From the IMG/VR virus record IMGVR_UViG_3300043408_000023, positions 1 through 35,733 of that record: a DNA stretch of 35,733 nucleotides, one strand, 5' to 3'. The DNA comes from a virus. Positions 15,110 through 23,720 of this stretch are shown here, in pieces. The translations under genes and the position numbers were made by a program. Position 1 is the stretch's first letter; each line of letters opens with the position of its first letter. The notes under the pieces are model-generated. The model was not told the origin of the DNA and did no database searches. It worked only from the letters and a program-made list of their open reading frames with translations.

Positions 15110-15441
15110 ATTATATTTATTTTTAATGTGTCTATTACAAAATAAAAAAAATCAAAATACAAAAATGTTAAAGTCATTGTTTCGTATCAGAATTTTAGGG
15201 GGCACAAGCCACTCCCCTATTATTCTATGCGAAAGGAAAGGGTAGGGGGTCTACTACAATAACCAATAATATATATTATGTTAAATAGACTATCCTATCC
15301 CCTCCCCTATCGATGGCAAAGCTAGGGATAATTAATGATTTGTTGGTAGGTCATTTTCGCCAACTAACCCACAATAGACCTAATATACTATTAATACACT
15401 ACTAACTATATCTTTATTCTATCTAGTTACTATTCTATTAA

Positions 15442-15461
15442 TACTATATAATTATATAGTA
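15442..15461. repeat. Perfect 20-bp AT palindrome
   Basis: TACTATATAATTATATAGTA is its own reverse complement over 20 bases. It lies in the middle of the divergent control region and could be an operator for a dimeric protein, a cruciform, or an easily melted site. Confidence 0.85.
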
Positions 15462-15509
15462 ACTATATAATATTATAATATAAGTATATTATATTAATAC
15501 TATATAGTT
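15461..15509. repeat. Imperfect inverted repeat, AT-rich
   Basis: AACTATATA (15461-15469) is inverted as TATATAGTT (15501-15509), with further partly complementary A/T sequence between them, giving a long imperfect hairpin. It abuts the 20-bp palindrome. Low complexity means some of this symmetry could be chance. Confidence 0.6.
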
Positions 15510-15610
15510 ATATAACAGGATAACAAAAATAATTTAAACTTTTTTATACTTTTTTATACTTTGTATTAATTTAGTTTATATCTTTATATCCAAATCAAAT
15601 CAATAAAACT

Positions 15611-15733
15611 ATGAACACACACATCACACTAGCCGAATTACTACTAATCTTTATTGTTTGTTTACCTGTATATGCATTGGGCAAAACAATAATTGAAAGT
15701 ATTAAACCAACAAACAAAAACAATAACCAATAA
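15611..15733 (+). CDS. Small membrane protein, first early gene
   Basis: Forty residues starting MNTHITLAELLLIFIVCLP. It is predicted to have one membrane helix (about residues 8-24) and a short charged Asn/Lys-rich tail. It is the first ATG after the divergent control region and has an A/C-rich leader like the genes that follow. Function is unknown; small early membrane proteins in phages often act on host processes, but nothing here shows that. Confidence 0.5.
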   Translation: MNTHITLAELLLIFIVCLPVYALGKTIIESIKPTNKNNNQ

Positions 15734-15744
15734 AATCAAACATC

Positions 15745-15885
15745 ATGAGAGAAATAAAAGACAACTACAATAACCAGTACGGATATTTCCCAACCGATGC
15801 GGAAATACTTAGCCTTTATTTATTGGGTGAATTAAAAATAAATGATAAACAAGAAAACGAACTTTTAAGATATTTTAATTTATAA
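15745..15885 (+). CDS. Small early protein, unknown
   Basis: Forty-six residues, MREIKDNYNNQYGYFPTDAE then a helical ILSLYLLGELKINDKQENELLRYF segment. It starts 11 bases after the previous gene with a leader ending CAAACATC, like other early leaders in this arm. Composition and spacing favour a real gene. No family is recognised. Confidence 0.5.
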   Translation: MREIKDNYNNQYGYFPTDAEILSLYLLGELKINDKQENELLRYFNL

Positions 15886-15905
15886 AACTTTTAAATTTTA
15901 CAACT

Positions 15906-21413: not shown

Positions 21414-21421
21414 TACCTTTG
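21414..21421 (+). promoter_or_regulatory. Putative promoter -7 box TACCTTTG before initiator leader
   Basis: TACCTTTG matches TAnnTTTG exactly. It starts four bases after the previous gene's stop. Transcription would begin about where the first hairpin of the leader begins (21424). No TTG is seen at 17-23 bases upstream, only a TTTA at 21393-21396. Confidence 0.45.
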
Positions 21422-21423
21422 TG

Positions 21424-21512
21424 ATGAGTGTCGGATACTCATTTAGAACTTATTGCCCTTGAGATGAACCCCCAATCCGACTGGGGGGAATTTGATAGGG
21501 CTCTTTTATTTT
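21424..21512 (+). ncRNA. Structured leader with kissing hairpin loops upstream of initiator gene
   Basis: Hairpin 1 has arms ATGAGT (21424-21429) and ACTCAT (21437-21442) with a 7-nt loop GTCGGAT (21430-21436). Hairpin 2 has arms CCCCCA (21469-21474) and TGGGGG (21482-21487) with a 7-nt loop ATCCGAC (21475-21481), exactly complementary to loop 1. A closing stem GCCCT/AGGGC (21455-21459 and 21497-21501) encloses hairpin 2, followed by TCTTTTATTTT up to the ATG at 21513. The design suggests a kissing-loop RNA switch or an attenuator for the initiator. The stems and loops are seen; the regulation is inferred. Confidence 0.7.
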
Positions 21513-22127
21513 ATGAATAGAGATTTTAAGGGAGTTTGGATTCCCAAAGACATCTGGTTAGACGAAAACCTTACATGGATGGAAAAACTTTTGTTAGTAG
21601 AGATTGATAGTCTTGATGCTGAGAAAGGTTGTTTTGCTAGTAACCATTACTTTGCTAAGTTTTTTCAGTTAAGCAAATCAAGGATTAGTGATCTAATTGG
21701 TCAGTTAGTAGCTAAAGGCTACATCACAACATTTTTATTGTACGAAGGTAAACAGGTAAAGAGAAGAGAAATTACTATGGTTATACCTATTCGGAAATTC
21801 GAAGGGGGTATTCGGAAAACCGAAGAGGGGTATTCGGAAAACAGTGAGGATAATAATACATTAGTTAGTAATACAATTAGTAATAAGAATAATAAAATAT
21901 ATAACCATAAAGAAGCTTTTGTTTCTAGGGTAGATGAGTTTAAAGATAAACTTGGTAATGAGTATAGTAGGTTTATAGATTACTGGACTGAAGCTAATGA
22001 GAAAGGTAAAATGAGATTTCAGGACCAAAAATTCTTTGACATTAGTAGAAGGATTGCTACATGGACTAAGAACTCAAAAAACTTTCAACCTATAATTACG
22101 GAATCACCAAAAATAAAACTTAAATAA
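21513..22127 (+). CDS. Winged-helix replication initiator (lambda O-like role)
   Basis: A 204-residue protein. The N-terminal 90 residues form a winged helix typical of phage initiators: VWIPKDIWLDENLTWMEKLL, then CFASNHYFAKFFQLSKSRIS and LVAKGYITTFLL. A low-complexity linker follows (about residues 92-130, with IRKFEGGIRKTEEG), encoded by the iteron repeats. The C-terminal domain (FIDYWTEANEKGKMRFQDQK, then FFDISRRIATWTKNS) probably contacts the helicase. ATG 21513 is chosen because the in-frame TTG at 21492 lies inside the leader hairpin. The gene is upstream of the DnaB-like helicase, and the origin appears to lie inside it. Confidence 0.8.
   Translation: MNRDFKGVWIPKDIWLDENLTWMEKLLLVEIDSLDAEKGCFASNHYFAKFFQLSKSRISDLIGQLVAKGYITTFLLYEGKQVKRREITMVIPIRKFEGGIRKTEEGYSENSEDNNTLVSNTISNKNNKIYNHKEAFVSRVDEFKDKLGNEYSRFIDYWTEANEKGKMRFQDQKFFDISRRIATWTKNSKNFQPIITESPKIKLK
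21788..21840 (+). repeat. Three origin iterons TATTCGGAAA inside initiator gene
   Basis: TATTCGGAAA occurs at 21788-21797, 21809-21818 and 21831-21840, giving spacings of 21 and 22 bp (two helical turns). The second copy continues as a short dyad (TTCGG AAAA CCGAA), the first nearly so (TTCG and CGAA), and GGGG follows both. Lambda iterons in gene O have the same arrangement of spaced dyads within the initiator coding sequence. Confidence 0.85.
21848..21912 (+). other. AT-rich unwinding region next to iterons
   Basis: Immediately after the iterons comes about 65 bases of nearly pure A/T with the direct repeat TTAGTAATA at 21865-21873 and 21877-21885 (12-bp period) and several AATAATA runs. 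It fits a DNA unwinding element beside the iterons. It is also the coding sequence of the Asn/Ser-rich linker of the initiator. Confidence 0.65.
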
Positions 22128-22128
22128 C

Positions 22129-22389
22129 ATGACACCAAGACAAAAAGCACTACATTTAGTAGATTCATTTACTGAAATAGATGAATTTACAATAGGGGGG
22201 CAAAAAATATACTTTCATGACTCTATAAAATGTGCATTAATATTAGTAGATGAGTTAATTCAAGAAATTTATAACATAGACCATCAGCATTCAGCAGTAT
22301 ATGATATTAATACCAAATTTTATAATTATAATGATTGTAAAGAATTAAAATACTGGAAAGAAGTTAAACAAGAAATAGAAAAATTATAA
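22129..22389 (+). CDS. Unknown protein between initiator and helicase
   Basis: Eighty-six residues, helical. The beginning TPRQKALHLVDSFTEI and the later KCALILVDELIQEIYN and YWKEVKQEIEKL segments resemble a small protein often found in Bacteroidota phages, with no known function. Its place between the initiator and the helicase, one base from each, invites a helicase-loader or accessory role, but no loader motif is present and it lacks an ATPase. Confidence 0.65.
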   Translation: MTPRQKALHLVDSFTEIDEFTIGGQKIYFHDSIKCALILVDELIQEIYNIDHQHSAVYDINTKFYNYNDCKELKYWKEVKQEIEKL

Positions 22390-23720
22390 TGAAAGCAGTT
22401 AACCTACCTAAGAACATAGAACTAGAAAAGAATATACTTGGATCATTATTAATAGATAAGAATGCTTTACCATTAGTAATTGGTTTATTAAAAGAAGAGG
22501 TATTCTACGACCTTAAACACCAAAGAATATTCAGAACCATACAAGATATGTTTAATCGTCATATTGCGATAGACATAACAACCATAGCTCAAAAGATGGC
22601 TAGTGATGAGTCACTTACTGAGGTAGGTGGTGCTTACTACCTATCGAAGCTAGGTGATAACATTGTGCATACAAATCATCTCAATACCCATATTGAAATG
22701 GTAGTAGAACTCTATAAGAAGCGTCAATCCTATTTACTATTAATGTCTACAGTAAACACTTTCTTAGATGCTGATACTGAATCACTTGACTTAATAAGTT
22801 CACTTAATAGTAAACTTATAGGTTTACAAGAGTATGGTAATCTATACGAACAAACTATAGATAAGATAGTTTTATCAATCATAGAAAAGAGAGATATGGC
22901 TCAAAAAGGTGAGTTATTAGGCTATAATACTGGTTTTGATGAACTAAACACTACCATAGCAGGTTGGTGTAAACCTGACCTAGTTATAGTGGCTGCTAGA
23001 CCAGGTGCAGGTAAGACAGCCTTCATGCTTTCTACGGCATATCACCTTAGTGTCATAGGGAAGCTACCTATAGCCATTTTTAGCCTCGAAATGAGCTCCG
23101 AACAGCTAGTTGAAAGGTTAGAGTCAATATCGTCTCAAGTGCCCTTAAAACGCCTTAGAATGAATAATATGAATGACTACGAAAAAAAGGTACTTATGCA
23201 AACAGATGATAGTATTTTGATGGCTCCTTTGCATATTGATGACTCAGGTGGTTTAAACATCTCCCAACTAAGGGCTAAGGCTACCATAATGAAGCAGAAA
23301 TATGGCATTAAGGTGATTTTCTTAGACTATTTACAGCTAATGAGTGGTCAAAATAAGTCCAATCAGAATAGAGAACAAGAGGTTAGCACAATAAGTAGGG
23401 GCTTAAAGTCGTTAGCTAAGGAATTAGATGTGCCTATAGTAGCATTATCTCAGTTGTCTAGGAGGGTTGAAGAAAGGGCTGACAAGATACCACAGCTGTC
23501 TGACCTTAGAGAATCAGGATCAATTGAGCAAGATGCTGACATTGTAATCATGCTTATGCGACCTGAATACTACGAGATGACTGAACCTGTAGAAATCAGA
23601 GGTAAAGAATACCCAACACAAGGGCTAATGATTTGTAAGGTAGAGAAGAACAGACATGGATCAACCATTAATATCCCTCTTAGGTTTATAGGGGAAACAA
23701 CCACAATACAAAACTATTAA
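22389..23720 (+). CDS. dnaB: Replicative DNA helicase, DnaB-like
   Basis: A 443-residue helicase with both domains. The N-terminal domain (residues 1-105) begins LPKNIELEKNILGSLLIDKN as in DnaB. The RecA-like domain has Walker A ARPGAGKTAF (203-212), FSLEMSSEQL (231-240), Walker B VIFLDYLQLM (309-318), ALSQLSRRVEERADKIPQLSDL (352-373), and ESGSIEQDAD (375-384). A full set of hexameric helicase motifs is intact. It overlaps the preceding gene by one base. With the initiator and iterons upstream it forms the replication core. No separate primase is recognisable. Confidence 0.96.
   Translation: MKAVNLPKNIELEKNILGSLLIDKNALPLVIGLLKEEVFYDLKHQRIFRTIQDMFNRHIAIDITTIAQKMASDESLTEVGGAYYLSKLGDNIVHTNHLNTHIEMVVELYKKRQSYLLLMSTVNTFLDADTESLDLISSLNSKLIGLQEYGNLYEQTIDKIVLSIIEKRDMAQKGELLGYNTGFDELNTTIAGWCKPDLVIVAARPGAGKTAFMLSTAYHLSVIGKLPIAIFSLEMSSEQLVERLESISSQVPLKRLRMNNMNDYEKKVLMQTDDSILMAPLHIDDSGGLNISQLRAKATIMKQKYGIKVIFLDYLQLMSGQNKSNQNREQEVSTISRGLKSLAKELDVPIVALSQLSRRVEERADKIPQLSDLRESGSIEQDADIVIMLMRPEYYEMTEPVEIRGKEYPTQGLMICKVEKNRHGSTINIPLRFIGETTTIQNY

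Follow-up and report, generated by a model that had tools for sequence, protein, structure and literature searches.

A self-contained leader RNA of ~85 nt, built on two hairpins whose 7-nt loops pair with each other, precedes the replication initiator gene of the virus record IMGVR_UViG_3300043408_000023. The two-hairpin kissing structure is close to certain, and the leader probably sets how much replication initiator is made. Its best reading, to which a probability of about 0.6 is given, is a 5′-terminal self-kissing attenuator controlling whether transcription enters the initiator gene. The window analysed was the full virus record of 35,733 bases.

Genomic context and leader anatomy

The initiator gene and the helicase gene located downstream of it were assigned as follows.

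21513–22127, + strand: replication initiator ORF of 204 aa with a winged-helix N terminus; matches PHROG 270 (replication initiation protein, E 3e-14) and Pfam HTH_36
22389–23720: DnaB-type helicase gene, downstream of the initiator gene

A Bacteroidetes-type host group is predicted; this assignment rests on the promoter type, the A-rich start contexts and the Polaribacter relatives. No integrase or repressor was found among the 22 proteins scanned. Two other regions of the window were recorded. Approximately 800 bp of AT-rich non-coding DNA with many direct and inverted repeats lies at 15110–15905, with leftward and rightward gene blocks on either side, and is a probable regulatory or origin-like region. 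Three near-identical direct repeats of the GGGGTATTCGGAAAAC type, with a spacing of 21–22 bp, are found within the initiator gene at 21788–21842; they are likely to be iterons, with the origin inside the initiator gene (cf. lambda O).

Ahead of the initiator ATG the leader elements are arranged 5′ to 3′ as a TAnnTTTG box, hairpin 1 (H1), a 14-nt linker, an outer stem P2 enclosing hairpin 2 (P3) and a T-rich tract.

21414–21421, + strand: sigma-A (−7) box TACCTTTG, TAnnTTTG type; a similar box recurs at this position in 49 distinct upstream contexts
21426–21440, + strand: hairpin 1 in its RNA form, GAGT[GTCGGAT]ACTC; its first base is the predicted +1; covariation
21430–21436, + strand: kissing loop 1, GTCGGAT; every relative keeps 100% complementarity to loop 2
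21441–21454, + strand: linker ATTTAGAACTTATT, 14 nt; 13–15 nt following a 5-bp H1 in classes A–C, ∼20 nt in the Polaribacter phage
21455–21459, + strand: outer stem P2, 5′ strand GCCCT; covariation
21460–21468, + strand: internal-loop side 1, UGA GAU GAA; the UGA/GAU facing pair is also present in the Polaribacter phage
21469–21487, + strand: hairpin 2 (P3), CCCCCA[ATCCGAC]TGGGGG; covariation, each of the six pairs being changed on both sides somewhere
21475–21481, + strand: kissing loop 2, ATCCGAC; exact reverse complement of loop 1
21488–21496, + strand: internal-loop side 2, GAA UUU GAU; the GAU beside P2 is kept in classes A and C
21497–21501, + strand: outer stem P2, 3′ strand AGGGC; covariation
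21502–21512, + strand: T-tract TCTTTTATTTT, putative terminator U-tract; adjoins the ATG at 21513 and is T-rich in all relatives

As DNA, hairpin 1 reads ATGAGT[GTCGGAT]ACTCAT (21424–21442), and the original prediction of two hairpins with 6-bp stems and exactly complementary 7-nt loops is borne out by the sequence. Kissing pairs with 7-nt loops and stems of at least 5 bp within 80 nt were counted; the window contained one, compared with a mean of 0.015 in dinucleotide shuffles. The leader region folded better than 200/200 shuffles (z −3.1). RNAfold gave an alternative in which hairpin 1 is lengthened and takes part of the window's loop into internal pairs, a fold that is impossible for other loop versions.

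Predicted transcription start

In Flavobacterium the TAnnTTTG box lies at −12 to −5 (PMC9723704). When this placement was applied to the box in the window, the predicted +1 fell on 21426. The earlier claim that the box sets the RNA start near hairpin 1 is thereby refined to a single base, and the box itself is conserved. In the predicted RNA, H1 has a stem of 4 bp that starts at the very first nucleotide, GAGU[GUCGGAU]ACUC, and the two outer ‘pairs’ are promoter DNA. In 49/49 distinct upstream contexts the H1 pairing is unbroken from the predicted +1 to the loop (stems of 4, 5 or 6 bp), with breaks confined to −1 or beyond, outside the predicted RNA. Because the first base of hairpin 1 coincides with the predicted transcription start, the element is taken to be RNA and not a DNA site; a pairing constraint that ends at a transcription start is expected of neither a protein site nor a cruciform, and both are therefore disfavoured. 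A leader peptide, MSVGYSFRTYCP, was considered and rejected: its start codon is at −2, which is not part of the predicted RNA, and the L079, L099 and L135 types do not keep the reading frame.

Several initiator N-terminal types share one leader with identical loops, one initiator type is found with up to three loop versions, and at two loci (L015 and L019) another gene intervenes between leader and initiator. The several initiator types and the intervening gene indicate that the leader is a module, not the site of one initiator. The intervening gene (L015:5351–6000, L019:774–1422) begins at the ATG of the leader and encodes 212 aa (MKVLVACEESQ..); by eye it is possibly methyltransferase-like. 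The initiators (e.g. L010, L025, L049, L064, L079) have differing N-terminal DNA-binding domains, some with common C-terminal parts, and these N-terminal domains are swapped independently of the leader loops.

Conservation among relatives

Using the initiator as a query, 59 viral-contig loci, mostly metagenomic fragments, were fetched, and their upstream regions had the same layout with different loops. Leaders were then collected with loop-blind anchors, chosen against circularity, that consisted of the linker plus the P2 5′ strand and of the P2 3′ strand plus the T-tract and ATG. Exact loop–loop complementarity of at least 7 nt was found in 72/72 distinct leaders; these come from uncultured phages whose promoters are of the Bacteroidetes type. 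Scanning viral contigs with a loop-blind DNA pattern gave results in agreement with the anchor search. The matches of a pattern scan for class C were mostly in unrelated coding DNA. The leaders carry eight different 7-nt loop pairs, to which two more distant versions are added, one of them in the cultured Polaribacter phages P12002L/S. Loop 1 reads GTCGGAT, GTTGCAG, ATTGCAG, ATGCGAC, GTCGCAT, GTACGAG or GTAGGAT, and GTCGCAG in L335, L339 and L340. The refuting observation named with the original prediction, a change in one loop unmatched in the other, was thus put to the test, and the outcome was strongly in favour of the prediction.

Covariation was scored over 15 distinct rows. For all stems and loops together, 98.8% of cells were paired, compared with 70% after shuffling, and 17/22 pairs had two-sided changes, with 86 such cells compared with 24 in shuffles; because the rows are mutually related, these shuffle counts and those that follow are not probabilities. 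When the partners were slid the pairing fell to 36–47%. For the kissing helix alone, 105/105 cells were paired (70% in shuffles), with two-sided changes in 5/7 pairs and 30 two-sided cells compared with 10 in shuffles. Minimal pairs are available on the same stems (GTTGCAG/CTGCAAC and ATTGCAG/CTGCAAT in L005 and L007) and on the same P3 stem (GTCGGAT/ATCCGAC in the window and GTCGCAT/ATGCGAC in L099). Since relatives swap its letters yet keep its pairing, the kissing interaction is considered to be real. Its pairs are all Watson–Crick, with no G-U, whereas G-U pairs are present in the stems. A U at position 2 and an A at position 6 are found in both loops of every relative (N-U-N-N-N-A-N), and the other five pairs vary.

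In P12002L/S the order is promoter TACATTTG, GTAG[GGTCGTAG]CTAC, CCTATTCT-TGA-AGAG[CCTACGAC]CTCT-GAT-AGAATAGG, T9, ATTA and ATG, with GTCGTAG/CTACGAC as the kissing core. P2 is an 8-bp stem (CCTATTCT/AGAATAGG) that is less GC-rich, the UGA/GAU internal loop beside P2 is held in common with the window, and from the predicted +1 a few unpaired bases precede hairpin 1. This leader lies ahead of a ‘primosomal protein’ gene, the product of which is 35% identical to the initiator of the window. L314 is built likewise, with larger loops, an 8-nt contact (GACATCAC/GTGATGTC) and a predicted GTG start farther downstream of the U-tract. A search with a partly approximate query gave matches without the element, except for L372, which is the L314 contig again. 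A host/prophage scan of a genome collection returned only three contigs, from goat MAGs, in which the leader was absent. There was no long gap ahead of the initiator in Skulduggery, HU1, Cruim01, vB_LspM-01, Flavobacterium 1/32 or Porphyromonas phage005b, and by eye no such element was found upstream of the initiator in Riemerella CRP5. In L056 (upstream of 6001) and L313 (upstream of 4001), both with a related initiator, the gene is preceded by a strong terminator whose loop is the complement of an 8-nt segment on its 5′ side (GGGTTGAC/GTCAACCC and TAGCAAGG/CCTTGCTA, respectively). These are possible pseudoknotted attenuators in phages that are seemingly not Bacteroidetes phages; as single cases, they were left out of the count.

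Terminator-like end of the leader

The 12 nt before the ATG in the window contain nine T and one A; 49 other genes, which are A-rich at this point, have a mean of 2.65 T and a maximum of six. In Flavobacterium an A at −3 promotes translation initiation (PMC6847099). As a T-rich stretch before the ATG is abnormal here and A is favoured at −3, the T-tract suggests a role other than translation. The earlier description of hairpin 2 as enclosed by a second stem and followed by T-rich sequence up to the start codon applies to the window and to its relatives alike: in every class the sequence next to P2 is T-rich and runs up to, or nearly up to, the start codon. Classes A–C have a GC-rich P2 (GCCC/GGGC), which is rebuilt as GGGY/GCCC in the L047-type and as GGCTT/AAGCC in the L335-type. 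A G+C-rich stem leading directly into a U-tract, as in an intrinsic terminator, is found in classes A–C and the L335-type, and the Polaribacter phage also has a stem and U-tract of this kind, with its less GC-rich 8-bp stem. The clearest terminator-like end is that of P12002L/S. The putative terminator stem of the window has only five canonical pairs beside the U-tract and a 9 × 9 internal loop below P3, and it was not among the results of a simple terminator scan. No conserved competing antiterminator helix was seen by eye, and the P2 and P3 strands of the L047-type cannot cross-pair.

A second terminator-like element with a conserved core, GCCCCC...TTAACTTAGTGGTGTGAGTTATGT...GGGGGC followed by T6ATTTT-ATG, lies before an upstream gene at eight loci (L017:5522–5590, L120:10681–10749, L006, L009, L065, L104, L106, L124). 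A kissing partner was sought upstream of this element at the eight loci and none was found. Its T-tract–ATG ending is like that of the leader and counts in favour of the attenuator reading.

Proposed mechanism and alternative readings

By comparison of the relatives, transcription is predicted to start at 21426, the 5′ end of the RNA is formed by hairpin 1, and all seven bases of loop 1 pair with the loop of hairpin 2, at the tip of a longer rod made up of P3, the purine internal loops and P2. P2 and the U-tract ending at the AUG may act as an intrinsic terminator, in which case some transcripts would end as an RNA of ∼85 nt and the remainder would be read into the initiator gene. Hairpin 1 would fold first, kissing could follow as soon as hairpin 2 emerges from the polymerase, and P2 with the U-tract would come last; because of this order, kissing is placed and timed to influence the closure of P2 (or ribosome access to the AUG). 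Whether or not the kissing contact has formed may then decide or tune termination, which it could favour or oppose. From a rough count of helix lengths against the 13–15-nt linker, kissing seems to be near the limit of what a fully stacked P2–P3 rod would permit. Bends could relieve this strain, and the sign of the kissing effect is for that reason not predicted. The dose of initiator would be set without a dedicated regulatory protein, and the terminated product of ∼85 nt, bearing two complementary loops, would leave room for intermolecular action.

The original prediction had offered a conditional terminator or a translation switch. The evidence leans towards the terminator, with translation control as its main rival. 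As a translation switch, which is judged unlikely, the kissing rod would hide or expose the initiation region and the T-tract would be a U-rich ribosome landing site. The same anatomy is predicted, with P2 within 12 nt of the AUG and thus inside the ribosome footprint; in Flavobacterium, initiation is tuned by secondary structure around the start (PMC6847099), and the I-complex plasmids control rep translation via a leader pseudoknot (PMC10724649). This reading does not sit well with a T-tract that replaces the usual A-rich context, with a GC stem directly abutting the T-tract in every class, with the terminator-like T9 of the Polaribacter phages or with the distance of the L314 GTG start from its U-tract. 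Control in trans, in which a terminated leader kisses nascent leaders of other genome copies and produces copy-number feedback or same-loop exclusion, is decidedly unlikely. The loops are self-complementary, their versions vary independently of the initiator type, and in P4 the CI RNA brings transcription to an early end ahead of the replication genes (PMC4825925). However, one RNA carries both loops, so pairing within it should win. The lack of an integrase or repressor among the 22 scanned proteins and the description of P12002L/S as lytic (PMC4615864) make P4-style immunity less favoured and leave feedback during infection unaffected. Unlikely, too, is a scheme with pairing both between and within molecules, in which terminated leaders would build up with genome number and feed back on nascent ones; the loop 7-mer would then be a compatibility tag, and co-infecting phages with the same loop would throttle each other's initiator while those with different loops would not.

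A 5′ stability element, in which the 5′-flush hairpin clamped by kissing guards the message from decay, would account for H1 starting at the predicted +1 in all 49 contexts; it is very unlikely, as it leaves unexplained both the abutment of P2 on the T-tract at the ATG and the conservation of hairpin 2 inside P2. The inverted repeat bound as DNA by the initiator, which had been named as the alternative, or more generally a binding site, cruciform or origin, is now disfavoured to the point of being extremely unlikely. The exclusively Watson–Crick kissing pairs and the iterons nearby in the initiator gene would suit it, but the identical leader ahead of several initiator types, the onset of the pairing constraint at the predicted +1, stems that covary and contain G-U pairs, and the fixed promoter and ATG spacing all point elsewhere. 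Scarcely more credible is an antitermination RNA of the HK022 put kind, through which the polymerase would be modified to deal with terminators farther along: a phage transcript that begins with two hairpins resembles such RNAs, whereas here a terminator-like element is built into the leader itself and the loops have no sequence conservation except pairing and two fixed positions.

Comparison with known systems

Leader RNAs built on a fully complementary loop–loop contact without a ligand core or antisense partner are absent from Rfam, and no earlier description of such an element was found in the searchable literature; in Rfam 15 no family reached the gathering score with this leader, with only chance-level matches below threshold. 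The ColE1 RNAI/RNAII kissing complex is formed by 7-nt hairpin loops that are fully paired. The phage leader resembles it in this respect and differs in that its hairpins are on one RNA and would govern expression of an initiator, not a primer. There was no sign of an antisense copy-number RNA of the ColE1, pT181 or I-complex type: an opposing sigma-A box (CAAAnnTA), the one promoter type scanned for, occurred in 0/108 distinct regions.

The L5–L13 contact of the cobalamin riboswitch (PMC10907184) is likewise a cis kissing interaction between an upstream hairpin and an expression-platform hairpin just before the gene, and it controls expression. The phage leader differs in having no ligand-binding core or Rfam match, a terminator-like platform and fully complementary 7-nt loops; no cobalamin or purine aptamer core was detected with Rfam and the internal loops vary between classes. 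P4 CI RNA and seqA–seqC immunity (PMC4825925) also involve complementary segments in a phage replication operon leader with premature termination as output, which is the output proposed here; in the present leader both partners are within ∼85 nt and the phage is probably lytic. The I-complex plasmid rep leader, with its pseudoknot and RNAI (PMC10724649), is also a folded RNA with a loop contact immediately ahead of an initiator gene, and translation of its leader peptide opens the pseudoknot. The phage leader has neither an antisense promoter nor a conserved leader peptide and its output is probably termination.

Implications

The element is small and modular and is located at a control point of phage DNA replication. 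Its presence in a cultured phage–host pair (Polaribacter P12002L/S) makes it readily testable. If it is an attenuator, the eight 7-nt loop pairs, having been tested by evolution, would be ready-made orthogonal parts, and the leader would show a way for phages whose promoters are of the Bacteroidetes type to set initiator levels through RNA folding alone.
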